Position numbers and translations under genes: made by a program
Origin: a virus
IMG/VR virus record: IMGVR_UViG_3300048999_000082
Coordinates: 1-54,079 of that record
Length of the DNA stretch: 54,079 nt
Strand: one strand, 5' to 3'
Shown: positions 13,316 to 54,079 of the stretch, piece after piece
Position numbering within the stretch: position 1 is the first letter of the stretch
Layout: the number at the start of each line of letters is the position of its first letter
Notes under the pieces: model-generated
What the model was told of the DNA's origin: nothing
The model's database searches: none
Seen by the model: only the letters and a program-made list of their open reading frames with translations

Positions 13316-14820
13316 AATACAAGTTCCGCACCAAGCCGTATGCACACCAGGTCCGTGCATTGCGATTTCTCATCCGCCACAAAGGCGGCGCGTTGTTGAT
13401 GGAACCGCGCACCGGTAAGACAAAAACCACAGTGGACTACGCATCTATGTTAGCAACGGCCGGCCGCATTAACCGCATGGTTGTCGTGTGTCCGGCGCGC
13501 GTGATGGGGGTGTGGATTGAAGAGTTCCACCGGCATTCCCCGTTGCTGGTCAACATCATTCTGTGGGATGCCGACGCACGTCAGGCTGCAATACCAAAGC
13601 CATCGGGTCATTACGACCTACACGTGTTGTTGGTGAATTACGAGGCGTTCCAGGTACCGGGTAAAAAACTTCCGTCCGGGCGCCGGTCATCATCCACCGG
13701 CCGGTTTAAATCCCGTAAGAGATTGCGTGCATGGCTCGACGGTAAACCGGCGTTATGTGTGCTGGATGAGAGCCACAAGATCAAATCCCCGTCGTCAAAG
13801 GCCGGCACCATGCTGGTGTCCATGCGCGACGATTTTACGTACCGCATGATCTTGACCGGCACACCCCAGACAAAAGCCAAACGCGTCATTGACATCTACA
13901 TGCAATGGCAATTTCTAAACCCCGCACGGTTCGCCCACGTACCCACGTCGCAAGAATTCAAGAACCATTATGGGAACTGGGTTACTGTCGGGGGTAACGG
14001 ATTCTCATACCCAAAATGGACCGGGCCGGCGAACCTCAAAGAATTGAAACAACTCATCCATCGGGATTCATTCGCGGTCAAACGTGACGACTGTTTTGAC
14101 CTGCCCCCAAAAGATGTACGCATTGTCCACACCCCGCTCACCGATTCACGCCAAGCGTACAAGGACATGGCGAAAGAAATGGTCCACCAAATCTCCACGG
14201 GTGAGATCACCGAAGCCACCATCGCGTTAACCCAGGCGTTGCGATTGTCGCAGATCACAGGTGGTAACGCGGGCATGCAAGACATTGTGTTGGACCCGCG
14301 TACCGGCGCAGCCAAACGTAAATCGTGGTCGGTTCGTATCGGCCATGAAAAGTTGAATGCGTTGCGGGAGATGTTGGAAGACGAGATTTTTGACCGGGAT
14401 GACAAAGTCGTTATCGCTGCCCGGTTCAACCCGGATCTTGACGCCATCCGTGACCTGTGTAAAAAAATCGGTATCACGGTGTATGAGTTGCGTGGCGGTA
14501 TGAAACGCGGTGACACCGATCAAGCCATTCGGAACTTCCGGGATGACGATGGTCCGGCCGCGTTCATCATGCAACCGGGCGCCGGATCATTGGGCATTGA
14601 CCTCTCAACGGCCGCACACATGGTGTGGTACTCGATGACGGCATCATGGGTGGATTACACCCAAGCGTGCGACAGAATCGCTCTCAGCCGCCGTTCCACC
14701 ACGTTTACGTATCTCATCGCTCCTGGCACGGTGGACGAACTCCTATACGAAACATTGCAGACCGATGGTGAAGTTTCCCGCGCAATTCTCGACAAGCCCG
14801 AGCGATTGTTGTTGGATTGA
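13312..14820 (+). CDS. SNF2-type superfamily 2 helicase
   Basis: A 502-residue DNA-dependent ATPase of the SNF2-like branch. Motif Q/I region: PYAHQVRALRFL then LLMEPRTGKTKT (Walker A). Motif II is LDESHKIK, motif III ILTGTP, and the C-terminal RecA domain carries VVIAARF, LRGGM, and SLGIDLSTAAHMVWY with QACDRIALS as the arginine-finger region (motif VI). Small phage versions are common near replication genes and are thought to remodel protein-DNA complexes or help replication restart. Start is TTG within the preceding stop, a common coupling mode here. Confidence 0.88.
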   Translation: MKYKFRTKPYAHQVRALRFLIRHKGGALLMEPRTGKTKTTVDYASMLATAGRINRMVVVCPARVMGVWIEEFHRHSPLLVNIILWDADARQAAIPKPSGHYDLHVLLVNYEAFQVPGKKLPSGRRSSSTGRFKSRKRLRAWLDGKPALCVLDESHKIKSPSSKAGTMLVSMRDDFTYRMILTGTPQTKAKRVIDIYMQWQFLNPARFAHVPTSQEFKNHYGNWVTVGGNGFSYPKWTGPANLKELKQLIHRDSFAVKRDDCFDLPPKDVRIVHTPLTDSRQAYKDMAKEMVHQISTGEITEATIALTQALRLSQITGGNAGMQDIVLDPRTGAAKRKSWSVRIGHEKLNALREMLEDEIFDRDDKVVIAARFNPDLDAIRDLCKKIGITVYELRGGMKRGDTDQAIRNFRDDDGPAAFIMQPGAGSLGIDLSTAAHMVWYSMTASWVDYTQACDRIALSRRSTTFTYLIAPGTVDELLYETLQTDGEVSRAILDKPERLLLD

Positions 14821-14878
14821 CGAACCTAACACGCCATCCATAAAATGGACACGTACACGACACCCATGGAGGTTTTGC

Positions 14879-15454
14879 ATGCCCCGAAACTTGTTGATTG
14901 AAGGGCCGGACGGGTCCGGTAAATCAACGCTCATTCGGCAGTTCACCGAACGATTCCCCGTACCCGTGCATCCGCGCGCGTGCACATCAACGGGTGGACC
15001 GGTCGACAATCTGTGTGACTGGGCGATGAACGATATTGCCGAACAGGACAAAAATTCCGGTTGGCTTGGCGCTGACGGCCACACCCCAACCACCCAGTTG
15101 TACGACCGGCATCCCGGAATCTCGGAACTGGTGTACGGGCCGATCTGTCGCGACAAGGTCGCCGTGGGTTTTGACAACTGGGGAAACCGCGACGAAATTC
15201 TGCACGGTATCCAGCGCAACATGTTCATCATCTGGTGTTTGCCCCCGGCAAAGGTCGTCGCGAACAACGTCATGAAACAGGTTGATAACCACATGTCAGG
15301 TGTGGCGTCGAACATCAGCGCGATCTATTCCGCGTACCGTCTATGGACGATGATCTACCACGGCGGATCATTCGTGTACGACTACACCAACGACTCACAC
15401 GCGAAAATCATCGAAGCCATTATGGCTGCCGAACTGGGGATCCTCCATGACTGA
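14879..15454 (+). CDS. Deoxynucleoside monophosphate kinase-like P-loop enzyme
   Basis: A 191-residue kinase of the thymidylate-kinase type. IEGPDGSGKSTLI is the P-loop (residues 6-18) and LYDRHPGISELVYG carries the DR motif typical of phage nucleotide kinases. GGAGG sits seven bases before ATG 14879. It stands at the head of a nucleotide-metabolism cluster (dUTPase, two thymidylate-synthase-fold enzymes, dCMP deaminase), so it probably phosphorylates dTMP or a modified dNMP. The 58 bases upstream contain no gene or clear promoter. Confidence 0.8.
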   Translation: MPRNLLIEGPDGSGKSTLIRQFTERFPVPVHPRACTSTGGPVDNLCDWAMNDIAEQDKNSGWLGADGHTPTTQLYDRHPGISELVYGPICRDKVAVGFDNWGNRDEILHGIQRNMFIIWCLPPAKVVANNVMKQVDNHMSGVASNISAIYSAYRLWTMIYHGGSFVYDYTNDSHAKIIEAIMAAELGILHD

Positions 15455-15968
15455 CACCCGTCCCACGACTGACCGGCACGATATCTTGACGGATATCATG
15501 CGTCGGCAGCGGGAACTTCAAATGATCATCAACGGTCATGACCCCCAGTATTCGAGAGATAAAATCCAAGACATTCGCATCAATATCTTGGCCGCCATCG
15601 CCGAACTCATCGAGATGTTGGATGAAATTCCGTGGAAACCGTGGTCTGCCTCTACTGAATTTCGTCGTGACGCATTCGTGTCTGAAGGCATTGACGTAAT
15701 GCACTTCCTCGTCAACATGTTCTTGATCGCTGGTGCCACCCCCGATGAGATTCACACCAAGTACGTTGCCAAGAACGAACTGAACCGCAAACGTCAAGCC
15801 GATGGTTATGACGGGTCCAACAAATGCCCCGGGTGCCACCGCGCGTACGACGATGAAGCCGTTAAATGCGAACTGCCATCGGTTGATGACGGTGTGGATA
15901 TGCATTGGTGCGAGGCGAAAAACGATTACGTGAACCCTGACGGTTCCGTGCACGTGGATGAGCGGTGA
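15447..15968 (+). CDS. Dimeric-type dUTPase / MazG-like pyrophosphatase
   Basis: A 173-residue protein. Residues ~45-115 show the all-alpha NTP pyrophosphatase pattern: AAIAELIEMLDEIPWKPW with metal-binding Glu residues, then EGIDVMHFLVNMFLIAG with E-x3-D, and YVAKNELNRKRQADGY with the basic K/R segment of dimeric dUTPases. The last 50 residues contain CPGC and two further Cys, a likely zinc ribbon. It would hydrolyse dUTP or another dNTP to monophosphate, feeding the adjacent synthase genes. Confidence 0.8.
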   Translation: MTDTRPTTDRHDILTDIMRRQRELQMIINGHDPQYSRDKIQDIRINILAAIAELIEMLDEIPWKPWSASTEFRRDAFVSEGIDVMHFLVNMFLIAGATPDEIHTKYVAKNELNRKRQADGYDGSNKCPGCHRAYDDEAVKCELPSVDDGVDMHWCEAKNDYVNPDGSVHVDER

Positions 15969-16933
15969 TCCACGGCTTCAATTACCCATCGGCAACCGCG
16001 TTGCATGACGGCATGTGTCGCCGGTTGATGATGGGTACGAGATTTAATCGTGATTTTGACTGGGTGCACGGGACGGAGGTCGGCCTGCACAACGTGACGA
16101 CATTCGCGCCGTCATTCGAATGGGAATTCAACCTACGGAATCTGTGGATTCCCCGGTCTCGGTGGACCATGATGGTTAGGCAATACCTGAACCCCGATGA
16201 ACTAAACCCGTGGCTCGACCTCATCGAATCCCGGATGTCATCACGCAACGGTCGTGGTCTGGCCGTGCTGCGTACGAACCATGTTCAAGGCCGGGGTAAC
16301 GGCAAGCATGTACGCCGGCGCTTCGGGTCATGCATGTTGAACTTCACTTTTCGCCGCAACCCGTATCCCCAGTTGTCGATGCATTCTCGCACGACGTATT
16401 TCGGTTACCTCGCCGCGCTTGATATCACGGTGGCGTACGCATTGGCGAAGTTGGTTGCCGAACGTATCGGTATCGAACCGGCGGGGATGTCATTTCTATG
16501 GTCCATCGAACTCGCCCAATTTCACGGGTTCCGTTCGCTGGCGTGGCCGTTAATGGATGATGAGATGCGTGAGGGGTTGATCGACAACGTCACTCGGGAA
16601 ACCCGTATGGCCATCCCAGCCACACCATCACGGCCCGGCGCACGTCCGGGATACCGCAAAGCGTTGGATGGATTCGCGCGCATCCACGCGGCCGATGAGG
16701 CCGGTAAGTTGTATGGCGACGAAGCATTTTCGTCATTCAACCGTGTACGGCGCCGGTATCATACCGAGGTGTATGGCGTTGACTACGCCGAACAGTTCGC
16801 CGGGGGATTGCGTAACGTTGGGACGTTCGCACCGTTGCCTTCGGTGGACGCGACCACGTTGGAGATTTGGCCCCACCTGAACGGAGTTGAAAATGACCGC
16901 ACCGAACCCGATGAGTTTGAAGACGACGAATGA
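15965..16933 (+). CDS. Divergent thymidylate synthase-fold paralogue
   Basis: A 322-residue protein starting at GTG (GTGA overlap). The central part parallels the thymidylate synthase core of the following gene: RRRFGSCMLNFTFRR (arginine, catalytic Cys region), then QLSMHSRTTYFGYLAALDITVAYALAKLV, which aligns with the LHCFYTIRSCDFVRYLRDD region of its neighbour. The position equivalent to E. coli ThyA Asn177 is Asp in both. The classical PC(S/H) motif is SC-M here, so catalysis may be altered. It may act on dCMP or a modified nucleotide, or be a non-catalytic partner. Alignment was done by eye. Confidence 0.62.
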   Translation: MIHGFNYPSATALHDGMCRRLMMGTRFNRDFDWVHGTEVGLHNVTTFAPSFEWEFNLRNLWIPRSRWTMMVRQYLNPDELNPWLDLIESRMSSRNGRGLAVLRTNHVQGRGNGKHVRRRFGSCMLNFTFRRNPYPQLSMHSRTTYFGYLAALDITVAYALAKLVAERIGIEPAGMSFLWSIELAQFHGFRSLAWPLMDDEMREGLIDNVTRETRMAIPATPSRPGARPGYRKALDGFARIHAADEAGKLYGDEAFSSFNRVRRRYHTEVYGVDYAEQFAGGLRNVGTFAPLPSVDATTLEIWPHLNGVENDRTEPDEFEDDE

Positions 16934-17777
16934 GGCGTTGTTTTCCCCCCAAGATTTCGAACAGGTTTACCGTGCATTCGGAAAAATGTTGATCGACACC
17001 GACCCGATCAAAAACGACCGGTGGCAGTCCATCGACGTGTCCGAATCCAAAGCACACGACATGCACGAATTGTTGAACGTGAATCTTCACCTGGTGATTC
17101 CGTACAACCGGGCGAACCTTCACACACTCGTATCTCCGTCCACACCGTGGGCCGATGACCATTTCAGCGAACGGATCGGGGGTAAACCCACAAACCCAGG
17201 TGACACGTACGCATCGTGGCCGTGGTACAAAGGCGGGGTGGAAGACCATAAATCCACCGGTCAGTTCAGTCACACGTACATGGAGAGGTATTGGCCAAAA
17301 GAAGCCAATGGTGGGGGGATCGGGCCAGAAGATACCAACGCACCTTTTCCACACCAAGGGATCCGTTATGAATACGGAGATCTCAATGACGTGGTGAATC
17401 TACTCGTGTCGGACCGCAACACCCGCCAGGCGTTCTTACCGGTGTGGTTTCCCGAAGATACCGGCGCGGTTCACGGCGAACGGGTGCCGTGCTCGATCGG
17501 CTATCACTTCATCATCCGTAACAACCGGCTGCATTGTTTCTACACCATCCGGTCATGCGATTTTGTGCGGTACCTTCGCGATGACATTTACCTCACCGGA
17601 CGGTTGATGCAATGGGTGTGCACACAATACAACCGGCTCACCGATGACCCGTTCGACATTACCTCGAACCCGATGGTATCCGTTATTCACCCTGGCGAAC
17701 TGGTAATGAACATTTCCTCGCTGCATTGTTTTCGAGGCGATGACCACAAACTACGTGAGATCATCGGTGCGTCATGA
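16893..17777 (+). CDS. Thymidylate synthase family enzyme, possibly dCMP-specific
   Basis: A 294-residue protein with ThyA-type motifs: QAFLPVWFPEDTG, ERVPCSIGYHF with the catalytic Cys, and LHCFYTIRSCDFVRYLRDD. In ThyA the motif RSxD is followed by FLGLPFN, where the Asn (E. coli Asn177) reads the pyrimidine; here the same column is Asp. Asp at this place is known to favour dCMP, as in T4 dCMP hydroxymethylase. So the product may be methyl- or hydroxymethyl-dCMP, though some actinophage relatives are simply called thymidylate synthase. ATG 16893 has GGAG upstream and overlaps the previous gene by 41 bases. Confidence 0.8.
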   Translation: MTAPNPMSLKTTNEALFSPQDFEQVYRAFGKMLIDTDPIKNDRWQSIDVSESKAHDMHELLNVNLHLVIPYNRANLHTLVSPSTPWADDHFSERIGGKPTNPGDTYASWPWYKGGVEDHKSTGQFSHTYMERYWPKEANGGGIGPEDTNAPFPHQGIRYEYGDLNDVVNLLVSDRNTRQAFLPVWFPEDTGAVHGERVPCSIGYHFIIRNNRLHCFYTIRSCDFVRYLRDDIYLTGRLMQWVCTQYNRLTDDPFDITSNPMVSVIHPGELVMNISSLHCFRGDDHKLREIIGAS

Positions 17778-18259
17778 CCCGGCCAACGCAGGTTGAATCA
17801 TTGATGGAGACCGCATGGGTCTTTTCGAAACGATCCACGTGCGCACGTAAACATGTCGGTGCGGTCATCGCCCGCGAAGGGCGAATCATCGCGTCCGGAT
17901 ACAACGGCGCACCGGCCGGCCTCCCGCATTGTTTCCATTCACTCCCGGATGAGATCCTCATGCCGGGTGGTCTACCATTCATCACCCCCGAGCCATGCAC
18001 AGTCGCCACACATGCCGAAGAAAACGCGATCTTCTTTGCTGCTCGTCACGGTGTGGCTCTCGACGGCGCCACGATATTTTGCACATGCATGCCATGCCCG
18101 CGTTGCGCCCGCGCGATCATCAACGCTGGCATTACATGCGTATGGTGGGATGAGCCATTTCGGGATGTCACCGGGATGACGTTGTTAACCCAAGTCGGCA
18201 TCAAAACAATTAGTTATCAGGCGGTTGTGAATGACGCGCACGCTGTCAATTCTCCGTGA
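17774..18259 (+). CDS. dCMP deaminase
   Basis: A 161-residue zinc deaminase. HAEENAIFFAA supplies the zinc His and catalytic Glu, and CMPCPRCARAI the two zinc Cys. SGYNGAPAGLPHC is the substrate-side motif of dCMP deaminases. It converts dCMP to dUMP for thymidylate synthesis and overlaps the synthase gene by ATGA. If the neighbouring synthase uses dCMP, the two enzymes would compete for substrate, making their order and regulation interesting. Confidence in the family is high; strict dCMP specificity is inferred. Confidence 0.9.
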   Translation: MTRPTQVESLMETAWVFSKRSTCARKHVGAVIAREGRIIASGYNGAPAGLPHCFHSLPDEILMPGGLPFITPEPCTVATHAEENAIFFAARHGVALDGATIFCTCMPCPRCARAIINAGITCVWWDEPFRDVTGMTLLTQVGIKTISYQAVVNDAHAVNSP

Positions 18260-20759
18260 CGAAAACTGCGATCTGTGCCGGTTACACGCCGGGGCCGATG
18301 GCAACGATCGTTGTGTGGTTGGACGAGGACCGGTGCCGGCGAAAATCGTCGTCGTCACCAAGGTTCCGTTGAGCAAGCGTGGACAAACTGAATTGAACGA
18401 TTATCTGACCACGGCTGGCATTGACCCGTCAGTCGTGGTTTTCACCGCAGCGTTAAAATGCCGTGCATGGGGGATAGAACCCAACAAGGCCGACATGAAA
18501 GCGTGCCGGTCATACCTTGATCAAGAATTGGAAATGATCAAGCCTAAATACATCATCGCGTTGGGCAACGAGGCGTTGTATTCGACCACCGGTAAATCAG
18601 GCATCATGAAATATCGGGGGCAAAAGTTCACGCACGCATGCCGCGCCATCGTCATACCCACGATCTCTCCCGCATCTGCCGCACGTAACCCCGGACAACG
18701 CGGGGGGTTGGTTGCTGATCTGAAATTCGTCGCTGACACCATCACGGGTCGACGCGACACCATGCAATATCTCGTACCCACACCTGACACGTACGTACCG
18801 GTGATGGACCGACCGACGTTGAAACGTATGCTGGCCGTTATCCAGTCATCCGATACGGTGTCGTTCGACATAGAAACCACCATGGGCCGTGAGACCGACG
18901 CTGACGCACACATCGTGTCGATCGCGATAACCACCCGCACGGGGGCCGATGACGCGTCAGCGATCGCCTGGGCCGTTCCTTTGTACCATCCGGAATCCCC
19001 GTTCCGGTCGGCATGGGAACGTGTGCTCGACATCATCGGGCAAGCCATCACCCGGATCACGGGTACGCCCCGAATTATAGCCCAGAACGGTAAATTCGAT
19101 CTGCGCTGGTGTCGGCATTTCTCATCGGTGTGGGGCGGTATCAAACTAACCTTTGATACTATCTTGGCCGCACATCTGTTGGACGAGAACCGTCCCAAAG
19201 GATTAAAGCCATTGGCGCAACAACTTCTCGGCGCCGAACCGTGGGGAATCGACACCCGTGACCTGTTGACCACACCCATCGCTGACGTACTGTGGTACAA
19301 CGCGCTCGATACGTGGCACACGTTAAGGTTGTCGGATGTGTTGAAACGTGACCTCATTAAACGGCCGCGTATCGCACGCATCTTTAAGTTCATCATGATG
19401 CCCGCATCGGAAGCGTTGACATTTTCCGAAGCAAAAGGCATTTGGGTCGACCGTGACCAGATGGAAAAAAACTGCGCCATCGCGGCAGCGAATCAAGCCG
19501 AGATCGAAACGTTGTTGTCGGTGTGGATTCCGCCATCCGAGGAATGGCCGGAGAAGATCAAGGCGGTTAATTACAACCCCTCAAATTTTCTGCGGTGGTG
19601 GTTGTTCGACCATCTGAATTTTCCGGTTATCGCACGGGGTAAGCAAAAAGATGATGGTTCACCCGGTGACCCGTCCGTGTCGGAATCAGTCATGTTCACG
19701 TTGGCTGAATTGCCCCATGCCGACGTGCCCCAGTTGTTGATCAAGCGGTCGTGGTGGAACAAATGCCAGACGTCATTCTTCAACCCGTACGCCGAACAAC
19801 TCGACGATGACGGATACATCCACACCAACTTCAAGTTGAACGGGACGACCACGGGCCGGTTGTCATCGGGTAAAGCCGACGAAGACAAATTGACCGCACG
19901 CAAACAAGAACGGGGAATGAACGCACAGCAAGTACCGCGTGACATTTTTGTGCGGGGTATCTTCGGTGCGCCACCGGGACGTAAATTCGTACAGGCGGAT
20001 TATTCACAGGTTGAATTGCGTACGGTGGCATTCGTCGCCCAAGAACGAAACATGCTGCACCATTACAACACCGGCCAGGATTTGCACATGGCTATGGCTA
20101 TGCGCATGACCGGAAAACCCCGTGAGAAAATCACCAAGGAAGAACGTAAGGCGGCCAAGCCGGTGAACTTCGGATTCCTGTATGGCATGAACTGGGCGAA
20201 ATTCATTGAGACCGCGTGGACGCAATATCAAGTGCATTTCACGGAGGAACAAGCCAAGGCAGCCAAACGGGCATTCTTTGAAATGTGGTCGGATCTCCCC
20301 GCGTGGCACAACAAACAACGCCGACTGGTCCGTAAATACGCACGGGTCGAATCGCCCATCGGCCGTATCCGTCACCTCCCCGATATCCGTTCGGCCGATG
20401 AAGGAGTACGGGCGGAAGCCGAACGGCAAGCCATCAACTCACCCATTCAATCGTTCGCGTCTGACATGGCGTTGCTGGCATTGACCATTTTGCATGACCT
20501 GTTCATCACCCACGATATCGACGGTCATATCGTGGGTACGGTGCATGACGCGATCAACTTTGATATCGCTGACCACGATCTCGCCCGTGCGCTACCGTTG
20601 ATCAAGGACACCATGGAGAATCTCCCACTCCGCCGTTTGTTTGGCGTCAATCTCACGGTCCCGATTGTCGCGGATGTATCCGTGGGTACACGATGGGGCG
20701 GCGCACGCGAATTGACACCCGCTGAAGTTTACGATTACCGAGGAGAAATGGCCGCATGA
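18231..20759 (+). CDS. DNA polymerase I fused to UDG-like domain
   Basis: An 842-residue family A polymerase with an extra N-terminal domain. Residues 1-180 resemble family 4 uracil-DNA glycosylases: CDLC, ALKCRAWG and KACRSYLDQELEMIKP supply four Fe-S cysteines, but the GExPG motif is VTKVP and the HP motif is SP, so glycosylase activity is probably lost. Residues ~205-370 are a 3'-5' exonuclease (DIET, NGKFDLRW, YNALD). The polymerase domain has motif A DYSQVELR (~590), motif B RKAAKPVNFGFLYG (~640) and motif C VHDAI (~770). It is the phage replicative polymerase. Confidence 0.92.
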   Translation: MTRTLSILRDENCDLCRLHAGADGNDRCVVGRGPVPAKIVVVTKVPLSKRGQTELNDYLTTAGIDPSVVVFTAALKCRAWGIEPNKADMKACRSYLDQELEMIKPKYIIALGNEALYSTTGKSGIMKYRGQKFTHACRAIVIPTISPASAARNPGQRGGLVADLKFVADTITGRRDTMQYLVPTPDTYVPVMDRPTLKRMLAVIQSSDTVSFDIETTMGRETDADAHIVSIAITTRTGADDASAIAWAVPLYHPESPFRSAWERVLDIIGQAITRITGTPRIIAQNGKFDLRWCRHFSSVWGGIKLTFDTILAAHLLDENRPKGLKPLAQQLLGAEPWGIDTRDLLTTPIADVLWYNALDTWHTLRLSDVLKRDLIKRPRIARIFKFIMMPASEALTFSEAKGIWVDRDQMEKNCAIAAANQAEIETLLSVWIPPSEEWPEKIKAVNYNPSNFLRWWLFDHLNFPVIARGKQKDDGSPGDPSVSESVMFTLAELPHADVPQLLIKRSWWNKCQTSFFNPYAEQLDDDGYIHTNFKLNGTTTGRLSSGKADEDKLTARKQERGMNAQQVPRDIFVRGIFGAPPGRKFVQADYSQVELRTVAFVAQERNMLHHYNTGQDLHMAMAMRMTGKPREKITKEERKAAKPVNFGFLYGMNWAKFIETAWTQYQVHFTEEQAKAAKRAFFEMWSDLPAWHNKQRRLVRKYARVESPIGRIRHLPDIRSADEGVRAEAERQAINSPIQSFASDMALLALTILHDLFITHDIDGHIVGTVHDAINFDIADHDLARALPLIKDTMENLPLRRLFGVNLTVPIVADVSVGTRWGGARELTPAEVYDYRGEMAA

Positions 20760-45947: not shown

Positions 45948-46305
45948 GTAACACCGCCTCGGCTTTCATGTCGTAATGATGGGTCCGGCGCTGCACCGCA
46001 CGGATGCGATATTCTTCACCGTTGAATGAGAACCAATCATCTTTTTGGATGTCAGCATCGTACAGACCCATCACCATAAATTTTACCTGTTCTTGGTCCC
46101 CGTCATTCGACATACCGATCGGTGTTTTATCGGCTTGGGGAATCAACCGGAACACCTGGTTGGTGACGTTCCCCGACACCATGGTGAACCCACCCGCACC
46201 GTCATTCACCTTAGTTGTTCGCGCCAACAAAATTGTCTCGGCATCGGCATTGATGAACGCCACGGTAATCTTGCGTTGTATTTCCAGTTCAAGCGCGGTG
46301 ATCAC
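45940..46305 (-). CDS. Head-tail connector (stopper type)
   Basis: A 121-residue protein starting at GTG in a GTGA overlap with the phosphatase gene. Its beta-rich sequence with QEQVKFMVMGLYDADIQKDDWFSFNGEEYRIRAVQRR matches the stopper-type neck proteins (gp16/FII type) that have a small barrel. It sits two genes after the gp6-type adaptor, separated by the unusual phosphatase and 173-residue genes. Confidence 0.7.
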   Translation of the reverse strand: MITALELEIQRKITVAFINADAETILLARTTKVNDGAGGFTMVSGNVTNQVFRLIPQADKTPIGMSNDGDQEQVKFMVMGLYDADIQKDDWFSFNGEEYRIRAVQRRTHHYDMKAEAVLRG

Positions 46306-48365
46306 GGTGCCACCCCCAACGCCGAAACAGCTACTTCTAACGTTCCGTTCCACACCGTGAACGCAGCGGACACTTCCACCGTGCCGTTATACACGGCTGC
46401 CGTTGTCGTACCGGCGACCGCGAACGTTTTGGTGCCGGTCACCCGTTCGACCATGTCATCGGCCGTAAATCCGTGATAGTCCACCTTGATTGTCGACCCG
46501 TTGTCTGTAACGTCTAACCGTACGAACTGGTGCTGATCCGCAACCGCATTCGCAGCCGGATAGATTCCCCCGGAATATACGCCGTTGCCGTGGTATGAAT
46601 CTTGGTGAATAGGTGAACACACGGCAACCGGGATGTTGAACGGTGTGTTAACACCACTGTCCCACCCGAGACAATGCAGGTCACCGTGAATAATTTGCAC
46701 ATTTTTACCGGCGAACATCGCACCGATCAACCCGCGCGCGGTCGCGTACGCTTCCATGGTGTCGTCACCCGCGAATGTCTGTGCTGTATTGTCTCCCCCG
46801 GTGTGTGGCCCATTCGACCACGCGCCGTCAAACGTGATGAGGTATAGCGCAGCATCATTCAATGCCAACGTGTCGGACAGCCACGTCATTTGTGTGGTGC
46901 CGAGTTTCGTTTTTGAGCTGTCATCCGTCGCTGCGATCGCAGAAGATTTCGATCGCGTATCAAGATGGATAACCCGTACGCGGCCAATCTTGTACGTCGT
47001 GTTCGCCGTGTCGGTTGCAGGCAATGTGTAGTTCGGAAAGTATTTCCGGTACGCCGAATGCCAGCCGATCGCTGCGGTACCGATCGAAACAGAATCACCG
47101 TTCGACGTGTTGAAGTCGTGGTCGGATGGCTGATAATCCAAAGGCACCGTGCGATACCACGCGTTTTGCTTCGGATAAGACAACGCGTTCATCCACGCGG
47201 ACAGATACAACGTTTCATCATTCGCCGCTGTACGCGTGTCATACTCCAGGTCACCAAGCATGAAATTACGCAACGGCCGGCGACCACCCACATACGTGGA
47301 TGCAGCGTGTGTGGACATCACGTCAAACGTACTGGCGTTGGAATTCACCTTTGCACACGACACCGGGATGATTGAGAACGATGCCGCAACGTCTACCGTG
47401 GGGTCGGTGTGGAATCGACCGATGGGGCCGGTCAATACCCCGCCAAGTTCCAGTTGGTACCAGTAGTCCGTGTCAGCCGTCAGTCCGGTTGCGTCGATCA
47501 TGCCCAATCCGTACGCGTCCGGGGTGGATGGCGCCCCAAAATACACCGGAGAGGTCATTGAGGACGACGTAGACACGCCAACCCGTACGGCGGTTGTTCC
47601 GTACACGTGATATCGAATCCGAGCCGCCACAGGCGTTATACGGCCCGATGTCATTGAGATTGTCCGCGCCACAAACGGCCCCGGCAACGTCGCCGTGTCG
47701 GTCATGACAAAATCGTCAATGTCCATTGTCGTGCTAATTGATCCAGTGATACCCGCACCAATAAATACGTAATCATCGGAGGCGCCAGTGGTGACATTCG
47801 CCGTGTGCACGTATGAGTTTGTTGGTGTAGTCGCATCCGCCGTGGCAAAATAATATGTCTCGATGGTTTGCGTAGTGCCGGCACCAAGGGTGATGTGTAT
47901 GTCAAATCTCACAATGGTGTTGAGAGGAACAATCGCTCCCGTATCCATTGACACACCTTGTACAGCACCGCCTTGGAACGTTCGAATGGTTCGAGACGTA
48001 TTCAAAGCCAATCGATACAACACATTAAAGGATGCATCGGTTACTGAAAAGACATCGGTTATCCCCCCGGGGTTAGCCGGTACAGACACATAAACCGAAT
48101 ACGTACGCTCATTGCCTGTTGGAGACCAACGGGGGTCAATTTTATTCACCCGAAGGTAATTATTATCAGCTGGACTACCATATACAAGACGCATCGTGGT
48201 AGAACCCTTGTGCGGAAGAGTTGTATCGAATTTTCGACTAAACCCAGTTTTTCCCGCAGTATTCAAGGTATTAACAAATGAGCCGGGCACCCCTCCGAAG
48301 CAAGTGTTGAGTTCTGAAATATCAACCCCACCCACACCTTGAAACCCATTCCACCACGTGGTCAC
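46302..48365 (-). CDS. PhoD-like phosphatase with N-terminal lectin-like domain
   Basis: A 687-residue protein. Residues ~1-225 are a beta-sandwich like LamG/concanavalin domains (YSVYVSVPANPGGITDVFSV). Residues ~226-330 resemble the Fn3-like N-domain of PhoD (GRITPVAARIRYHVYG...DYWYQLELGGVLTGPIGRFHT). The phosphatase core has LGDLEYD, PSDHDFNTSNG, HLDTRSKSS, LGTTQMTWL and IIHGDLHCLGW, the PhoD metal-ligand motifs. PhoD enzymes are metal-dependent phosphodiesterases acting on phosphate and teichoic acid esters. Its place among neck genes suggests a virion protein that degrades phosphate-containing surface polymers. Activity is unproven. Confidence 0.78.
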   Translation of the reverse strand: MTTWWNGFQGVGGVDISELNTCFGGVPGSFVNTLNTAGKTGFSRKFDTTLPHKGSTTMRLVYGSPADNNYLRVNKIDPRWSPTGNERTYSVYVSVPANPGGITDVFSVTDASFNVLYRLALNTSRTIRTFQGGAVQGVSMDTGAIVPLNTIVRFDIHITLGAGTTQTIETYYFATADATTPTNSYVHTANVTTGASDDYVFIGAGITGSISTTMDIDDFVMTDTATLPGPFVARTISMTSGRITPVAARIRYHVYGTTAVRVGVSTSSSMTSPVYFGAPSTPDAYGLGMIDATGLTADTDYWYQLELGGVLTGPIGRFHTDPTVDVAASFSIIPVSCAKVNSNASTFDVMSTHAASTYVGGRRPLRNFMLGDLEYDTRTAANDETLYLSAWMNALSYPKQNAWYRTVPLDYQPSDHDFNTSNGDSVSIGTAAIGWHSAYRKYFPNYTLPATDTANTTYKIGRVRVIHLDTRSKSSAIAATDDSSKTKLGTTQMTWLSDTLALNDAALYLITFDGAWSNGPHTGGDNTAQTFAGDDTMEAYATARGLIGAMFAGKNVQIIHGDLHCLGWDSGVNTPFNIPVAVCSPIHQDSYHGNGVYSGGIYPAANAVADQHQFVRLDVTDNGSTIKVDYHGFTADDMVERVTGTKTFAVAGTTTAAVYNGTVEVSAAFTVWNGTLEVAVSALGVAP

Positions 48366-53549: not shown

Positions 53550-54079
53550 TAGCGGTACCACCCGTCACGTCGGCCGCCGTACGTACCGCGAATGGATCTG
53601 CCGCACCGGCAAGCGCCGTTTGTTCTGCAGCGATCTGTGAATCCATGTCATCAGGAAACACATAACCCAATTTACGGGCTTCGCTACGATAATACGCGGC
53701 TGAAATAACGTGCCCTGCCAGCATGGTGTCCAGTTCGGCGAATTTAGCCGTCCGGTCAACAGGTACGGGGTCACCAATGGTCGGTGTGGCCACCACGTCA
53801 GTGAATGTAGTCTGTTCGTACGCCGGATACCAACCGTTGAGCAAATCGTAAAACATCTGCGCATGCTTTTCGATGATAATCTCGTTCTTTTCACCAGCCG
53901 CCGCATTGATGGGCGACAATTGAAGGGCCAACGCGATACCAGATTGAGCGAGGGTCACATCTACCACACCAACCGCGACATCCGGTGTGGCGGCGGCTTC
54001 CTTCATCCGCGCCCACAGCCAGTTATTGTGTTCAATGTACGGACCGACCGTGCCCACACCTGTCACGCGATTAAATGAG
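53539..54079 (-). CDS. Portal protein, C-terminal part (joins 1-1080)
   Basis: This is the 3' portion of the portal gene, read leftward from the right edge; bases 53953-54079 repeat 1-127 so 53952 joins directly to base 1. The unique part encodes 137 residues starting LAQSGIALALQLSPINAAAGEKNEIIIEKH, a helical portal-stem pattern, and ending Gly/Ala/Thr-rich (DVTGGTANGG). The full-length product is about 497 residues. Confidence 0.82.
   Translation of the reverse strand, partial: SFNRVTGVGTVGPYIEHNNWLWARMKEAAATPDVAVGVVDVTLAQSGIALALQLSPINAAAGEKNEIIIEKHAQMFYDLLNGWYPAYEQTTFTDVVATPTIGDPVPVDRTAKFAELDTMLAGHVISAAYYRSEARKLGYVFPDDMDSQIAAEQTALAGAADPFAVRTAADVTGGTANGG
53953..54079. repeat. Terminal direct repeat, right copy
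   Basis: Identical to bases 1-127 (see left copy). The duplicated bases lie entirely within the portal gene. Confidence 0.95.

Follow-up and report, generated by a model that had tools for sequence, protein, structure and literature searches.

A conserved phage gene pair of the thymidylate synthase superfamily with a predicted role in making C5-modified dCMP

The window analysed here is the whole of IMG/VR virus record IMGVR_UViG_3300048999_000082, a stretch of 54,079 nucleotides. It begins and ends with an exact 127-bp direct repeat (positions 1-127 and 53953-54079), and probably represents the complete genome of a phage, 53,952 bp long and circular or terminally redundant. With a GC content of 55.5%, this genome encodes terminase, portal, capsid, scaffold, tape measure and tail genes, and a 687-residue PhoD-like phosphatase/phosphodiesterase-type protein is coded within the structural genes (46302-48365, minus strand). 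On the plus strand, a replication block codes in order for an SNF2-type helicase, a kinase, a dUTPase_2, the two proteins called here gene 1 and gene 2, a dCMP deaminase, a family A DNA polymerase, a PD-(D/E)XK nuclease and a Sak4-like protein. Its central part comprises the following genes.

14765-15454, plus strand: P-loop dNMP-kinase-like protein (PHROG 761 thymidylate kinase, 2.2e-13; in Pfam, generic P-loop only)
15447-15968, plus strand: dUTPase_2/MazG-like nucleotide pyrophosphatase (PF08761, 1.8e-14)
15965-16933, plus strand: gene 1, GTG start, 322 residues, PHROG 13667, divergent protein with a predicted thymidylate synthase (TS) fold
16893-17777, plus strand: gene 2, ATG start with an in-frame TTG at 16887, TS-superfamily protein with dCMP as its predicted substrate
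17774-18259, plus strand: dCMP deaminase (PF00383, 4.3e-21; PHROG 174, 2.2e-45)
18231-20759, plus strand: family A DNA polymerase, part of the conserved block (PF00476, PF01612, PF03167)

The ORFs of genes 1 and 2 overlap by about 40 nt. A sequence-only reading of this DNA had placed both ORFs at these positions, next to genes for a kinase, a dUTPase and a dCMP deaminase, and this description was borne out. The true start of the kinase gene may be the ATG at 14879. The N-terminal domain of the DNA polymerase belongs to the uracil-DNA-glycosylase superfamily (PF03167, 1.5e-12). Among the genome proteins scanned, with a minority of the small ORFs included, neither a glycosyltransferase nor any other enzyme of a later step was recognised; a C5-cytosine methyltransferase and ThyX were likewise not found in this genome.

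Gene 2 harbours by sequence and model the features of the TS superfamily, namely the nucleophilic Cys, R166, S167 and the TS fold. Its motifs read PCSIGYHF...IRSCDFVRYLRDD, in which D233 (numbered from the TTG) falls in the N177 column of EcThyA. The residues discussed below are located as follows, with their TS equivalents.

17424-17429, plus strand: gene 2 Arg180-Gln181, R126 retained and R127 replaced by Gln, as in 57/57 homologues
17490-17495, plus strand: gene 2 Cys202-Ser203, nucleophile C146 and position 147, the latter Thr/Ser rather than His
17550-17561, plus strand: gene 2 Arg222-Ser223-Cys-Asp225, equivalents of R166, S167 and D169
17583-17585, plus strand: gene 2 Asp233, equivalent of N177 and putative pyrimidine reader, Asp in 57/57 homologues

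We aligned 57 non-redundant homologues of gene 2 with EcThyA, T4 gp42, RB69 ORF048c and the Pamexvirus TS in a multi-family MAFFT alignment. Y94, R126, C146, R166 and H207 are retained in all 57 sequences, which also share Asp177, Gln127 and Thr/Ser147; D169 is present in 56/57 and S167 in 53/57 of them. Thus, the assignment of gene 2 as a TS-like protein with Asp in the N177 column, made earlier from the single sequence, holds across the whole family, and this Asp is likewise found in 56/56 gene 2 sequences of loci collected with gene 1 as the anchor. The residues at 143 and 173 are those of neither TS nor T4 gp42, Phe replaces Tyr209, and the tail that follows H207 has a median length of 16 residues, as compared with 14 in the hydroxylase family, 28 in T4 gp42-like proteins and 57 in ThyA. 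Gene 2 is approximately 35-57% identical to its homologues in IMG/VR contigs. It matches PHROG 160 ('thymidylate synthase') at 1.6e-26 and scores 21.8 bits against PF00303, below the 24.3-bit cut-off that some of its relatives exceed. Judged from Asp177, this sub-cut-off score and the short C-terminal tail, gene 2 is not a canonical ThyA. In relatives, it is usually annotated as 'thymidylate synthase' and gene 1 as 'hypothetical protein'.

Over its N-terminal third, gene 2 is poorly alignable with known TS enzymes. Residues upstream of Y94 in the multi-family alignment were discarded, since this region is misaligned: E58 was read there as Phe in the hydroxylases, yet their invariant AExFW motif fits E58-W61. 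The likely position of the catalytic Glu (T4 E60, EcThyA E58), in this ambiguous N-terminal alignment, harbours Glu or Asp in 52 of the 56 readable gene 2 sequences. Because of the R127 to Gln replacement and of this poor N-terminal alignment, we treat gene 2 as a putative rather than an established catalyst. In a tree of the core region, gene 2 forms a clade of its own (support 98/95) outside both the T4 gp42 and the hydroxylase clades, in a topology with several uncertain deep joins between long branches.

In TS, dCMP hydroxymethylase and MilA, residue 177 decides between cytosine and uracil, and residues 126 and 167 between deoxyribose and ribose (PMC5175136, PMC6400193). Arg126 and Ser167 of gene 2 correspond to the pair found in deoxy-specific enzymes (residues of PMC5175136), and by these specificity rules, Asp177, Arg126 and Ser167 lead us to expect dCMP, which is the likely substrate. 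In environmental phage contigs selected for modified cytosine, positions 177 and 147 are the two of TS with the strongest association, with mostly Asp at 177, and TS is found together with dCMP deaminase and a nucleotide pyrophosphohydrolase domain (PMC8670742). Gene 2 fits this pattern with its Asp177 and a residue other than His at position 147. The original idea that the Asp in the N177 column of both proteins points to cytosine over uracil is upheld. The carbamoyltransferase PF02543, also tied to modified cytosine (PMC8670742), was absent from all 44 records searched.

Neighbouring genes had also been taken as a sign of modified dCMP, but the deaminase and dUTPase by themselves give no such indication, since both also supply dUMP, and the set formed by the kinase, the dUTPase and the dCMP deaminase is also compatible with plain dTMP supply. 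Gene 2 might methylate dCMP and the deaminase convert 5-methyl-dCMP to dTMP, leaving virion cytosine unmodified. T-even dCMP deaminases do accept 5-substituted dCMP, a dCMP deaminase profile matched in almost all loci searched (62), directly adjoining gene 2 in several of them, and the kinase of relatives is annotated as a thymidylate kinase. However, ThyX is already encoded in 16/57 records, including the contig of the closest relative, and Microbacterium phage Triscuit carries a canonical N177 ThyA adjoining the pair, so that plain thymidylate supply is unlikely to be what the pair serves for in those phages. Methylation of dCMP for thymine supply would moreover leave gene 1 without a role. 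We consider it unlikely that the pair is present just for thymidylate, and this specific route with unmodified virion cytosine appears improbable. From the residues described above, virion DNA may plausibly contain a modified cytosine. No data on the DNA chemistry of this phage or of its paired relatives were found.

Gene 1 yielded no useful match in Pfam or by sequence in the PDB, where hits to citrate synthase and similar proteins were dismissed as chance. Its three key residues are as follows.

16331-16333, plus strand: gene 1 Cys123, putative equivalent of the TS nucleophile C146, invariant
16388-16390, plus strand: gene 1 Arg142, putative equivalent of TS R166, invariant
16421-16423, plus strand: gene 1 Asp153, putative equivalent of TS N177, Asp here, invariant, profile-aligned to the Asp of 5-hydroxy-dCMP synthases

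Among 36 homologues, which are 12-55% identical to the copy of this phage, C123, R142 and D153 are the sole invariant columns, and they are also kept in 57/57 gene-1-anchored loci, a set that overlaps the 36. The spacing of 11 from Arg to Asp is the same as that between R166 and N177. The equivalents of D169, H207/Y209 and R126 are not conserved. We built an AlphaFold2 model of gene 1 from these 36 homologues (mean pLDDT of 89.6). Structure prediction had been proposed as a check of the paralogy, and all 50 PDB matches listed by Foldseek for this model belong to the TS superfamily; among them, MilA ranks first (E 6.7e-6) and the HY126 dCMP hydroxylase third, with modest TM-scores (target-normalised up to 0.54). 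In profile-profile comparisons, gene 1 matched the 5-hydroxy-dCMP synthases with a score of 45.7 (E 1.3e-5, 171 columns), its sole clear match to a TS-family profile, the second-best being that of the Pamexvirus TS (29.9). Chance was rejected as the source of this match, because decoys consisting of unrelated operon families, reversed profiles and shuffled profiles scored at most 18.4.

By its predicted fold and its profile match, gene 1 is thus a member of the TS superfamily, and the earlier by-eye alignment of gene 1 to the TS core proved correct. In the profile alignment, C123, R142 and D153 face the Cys, Arg and Asp of the synthases, and these residues most probably occupy the C146, R166 and N177 columns of TS. 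That strict conservation is limited to the putative nucleophile, the Arg of the phosphate/Cys site and the pyrimidine reader speaks for a functional nucleotide-binding active site and against a degenerate copy. PHROG 13667 is matched by gene 1 and Muddy gp47, and PHROG 34294 by more distant members of the family. PHROGs assign no function to either group, and a few GenBank records name their members 'pyrimidine hmase synthase'. Gene 1 is the new element of the module.

Next to gene 1, gene 2 was found downstream in 56/56 testable loci of a gene-1-anchored search. A search anchored on gene 2 revealed gene 1 close upstream in 46 of the 57 loci with enough sequence, including 41 pairs identified by script, three at approximately 2 kb and two with larger overlaps, in a set that counts one contig twice (L002 and L041). 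Gene 2 occurs without gene 1 in the other 11 loci, which include a divergent gene 2 group (L030-L035 and L037). Since gene 1 was never found alone and gene 2 sometimes was, the dependence appears to be that of gene 1 on gene 2 and not the reverse.

Other enzymes adjoin gene 2 in four of the 11 contigs devoid of gene 1. An amino-methyltransferase is coded just upstream of gene 2 in L013, L014 and L022, and a C5-cytosine methyltransferase-like protein with GHPECG replacing the usual PPCQ upstream of gene 2 in L014 and L015; an asparagine-synthase-like amidotransferase is also present in L013-L015. The later steps of modification may thus follow a different pathway in these four loci.

The tight adjacency of the two genes, which frequently overlap by at least 1 nt, and the constant presence of gene 2 beside gene 1 would also fit a TS-like dimer of the two proteins with active sites shared between subunits. 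In line with this arrangement, which is compatible with either of the chemistries discussed below, R126, a residue that crosses the dimer interface in TS, is kept throughout the gene 2 family and varies in gene 1. The sequence-only reading had raised such a heteromer, but co-divergence lends it no support (partial correlation of -0.33 between the divergences of gene 1 and gene 2 over 23 loci, with other operon genes controlled for), and the 11/57 loci with gene 2 alone indicate that gene 1 is not always needed. We regard a shared dimer as rather unlikely.

Near-identical gene orders are found in the phages Muddy (Mycobacterium), Zuko (Streptomyces), P744 (Yersinia), Serbin (Serratia), BillDoor (Gordonia) and Triscuit (Microbacterium), as well as in Brevundimonas phage Polewnik, in which no deaminase is annotated adjoining the pair. 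In a collection of bacterial and archaeal genomes covering 84,980 species, gene 1 was present in a single contig, QHXS01000048.1 (L322), and the family therefore looks essentially viral. This 60.9-kb contig of an Acidobacteria MAG is probably a phage contig binned with its host. In the Manatee Spring phages ctuI7215 and ctfzr933 (L059 and L069), a ThyX gene lies within the gene 1/gene 2 cluster, which in ctfzr933 also harbours an ATP-dependent DNA ligase gene, a domain class tied to modified-cytosine contigs (PMC8670742).

Taken together, we favour, with moderate confidence, the reading that the pair constitutes a conserved module by which phages make a C5-modified dCMP for their DNA. Gene 2 would be the primary enzyme, with its Cys attacking C6 of dCMP and its Asp holding and protonating the cytosine ring, after which C5 would be substituted with a hydroxyl, as by the RB69-type 5-hydroxy-dCMP synthase, or with a folate-derived hydroxymethyl or methyl group. 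The neighbouring kinase would probably then phosphorylate the modified dCMP, which would enter the DNA in replacement of some or all cytosine. Because gene 1 has kept the same Cys, Arg and Asp, it would bind and activate a cytosine nucleotide in the manner of gene 2; never occurring without gene 2, which can occur alone, it would most likely act downstream on the product of gene 2, or as a dependent partner subunit. More speculatively, and rather unlikely in our estimation, gene 1 might have a new activity, acting as a further TS-fold enzyme on the modified dCMP, which it would re-activate through the same type of Cys-C6 adduct before converting its substituent further; the result would be an undescribed hypermodified cytosine, assembled at the nucleotide stage by phages of Actinobacteria and Proteobacteria.

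Modification of phage DNA blocks restriction and CRISPR nucleases. If the favoured reading is true, at least 85 sequenced phage records, mostly from Gordonia and otherwise from Mycobacterium, Streptomyces, Microbacterium and Curtobacterium, and including mycobacteriophage Muddy and M. abscessus-isolated phages, carry an unrecognised cytosine-modification module, PHROGs 13667 and 34294 gain a function, and the TS superfamily gains a branch with two divergent paralogues built on the same Cys-Arg-Asp core. Nothing usable on the restriction resistance of the paired phages was present in PMC7775415, PMC8951688 or PMC10070969.

As for the group installed by the module, the sequence-only reading had proposed a methyl or a hydroxymethyl. 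Modified dCMP stands as the expected product, and the restriction to these two groups was too narrow: Mosigvirus (RB69-like) phages make 5-hydroxy-dCMP for DNA with a TS-superfamily enzyme (PMC13390438), whose family is the one that both genes match best by profile. Gene 2 might be a flavin-dependent dCMP hydroxylase of the RB69 ORF048c/HY126 AfhB type, making 5-hydroxy-dCMP, with gene 1 assisting or modifying the product. The titles of PDB entries 9iqu and 9iqc describe a phage dCMP hydroxylase and a flavin-dependent monooxygenase with dCMP, and we considered RB69 ORF048c as a 5-hydroxy-dCMP synthase on the basis of its identity to the 9iqu core and of PMC13390438. Like gene 2, the RB69-type synthases (RB69 ORF048c; HY126 AfhB, 9iqu and 9iqc) harbour the TS fold, Asp177, Phe209, a short C-terminus and Thr147, the latter replaced by Ser in some gene 2 homologues. 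Gene 2 scores highest against their profile (109.7, E 1.6e-15, 197 columns), and 9iqu, which is also a short chain, has the top target-normalised TM-score among the matches listed for both genes. However, the Pamexvirus TS core scores nearly as high (102.1), the hydroxylases have Asn169 in an RSQN motif in place of the RSCD motif and Asp169 of gene 2, and they retain R127 and form a separate clade. No gene 1 is annotated in the RB69 genome stretch examined.

Alternatively, gene 2 might be the folate-dependent dCMP hydroxymethylase or methylase of the original proposal. The TS-fold enzymes with Asp177, T4 gp42 and MilA, add a hydroxymethyl group. N177D-type mutants of TS add a methyl (PMC8670742). 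Gene 2 retains D169, a folate-site residue, and its Asp177 is also found in the TS of Pamexvirus AAT-1; another Pamexvirus, AXL1, is related to the 5-methylcytosine phage Xp12 (PMC9206674). The short tail of gene 2, the replacement of Tyr209 by Phe and the divergence at positions 143 and 173 argue against a folate enzyme. With the hydroxylase profile, Phe209 and the short tail on one side and the retained D169 on the other, hydroxyl and folate-derived groups appear about equally likely, and we hold each of the two enzyme types as a tentative possibility within the favoured reading of a module for C5-modified dCMP.

Among other known systems, Pamexvirus AAT-1 gp46 is a TS with Asp177 encoded near a dCMP deaminase and a nucleotide pyrophosphohydrolase. 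It differs from gene 2 by a full ThyA-like tail, Pro147 and a distinct clade, and no gene 1 was recognised in the stretch examined. Pseudomonas phage AAT-1 (L065) and Achromobacter phage 83-24 (L066) share this separate Asp177 TS lineage, with its ThyA-like full tail, Pro147 and nearby dCMP deaminase, and these proteins of Pamexvirus and Steinhofvirus are candidate dCMP methylases or hydroxymethylases. The CMP 5-hydroxymethylase MilA (5b6d, 5jnh) is the top PDB match of gene 2 by both profile sequence search and Foldseek, and that of gene 1 by fold. At the positions of Ser and Arg in gene 2, a combination of the deoxy type (PMC5175136), it carries Ala and Lys. The dCMP hydroxymethylase T4 gp42 resembles gene 2 by its TS fold, Asp177, Thr147, Asp169 and deoxy-type R126 and S167, and differs from it by Tyr209, a longer tail, the retained R127, Gly173 and a weaker profile match to gene 2 (71.9, next to 71.3 for ThyA), well below that of the hydroxylases.
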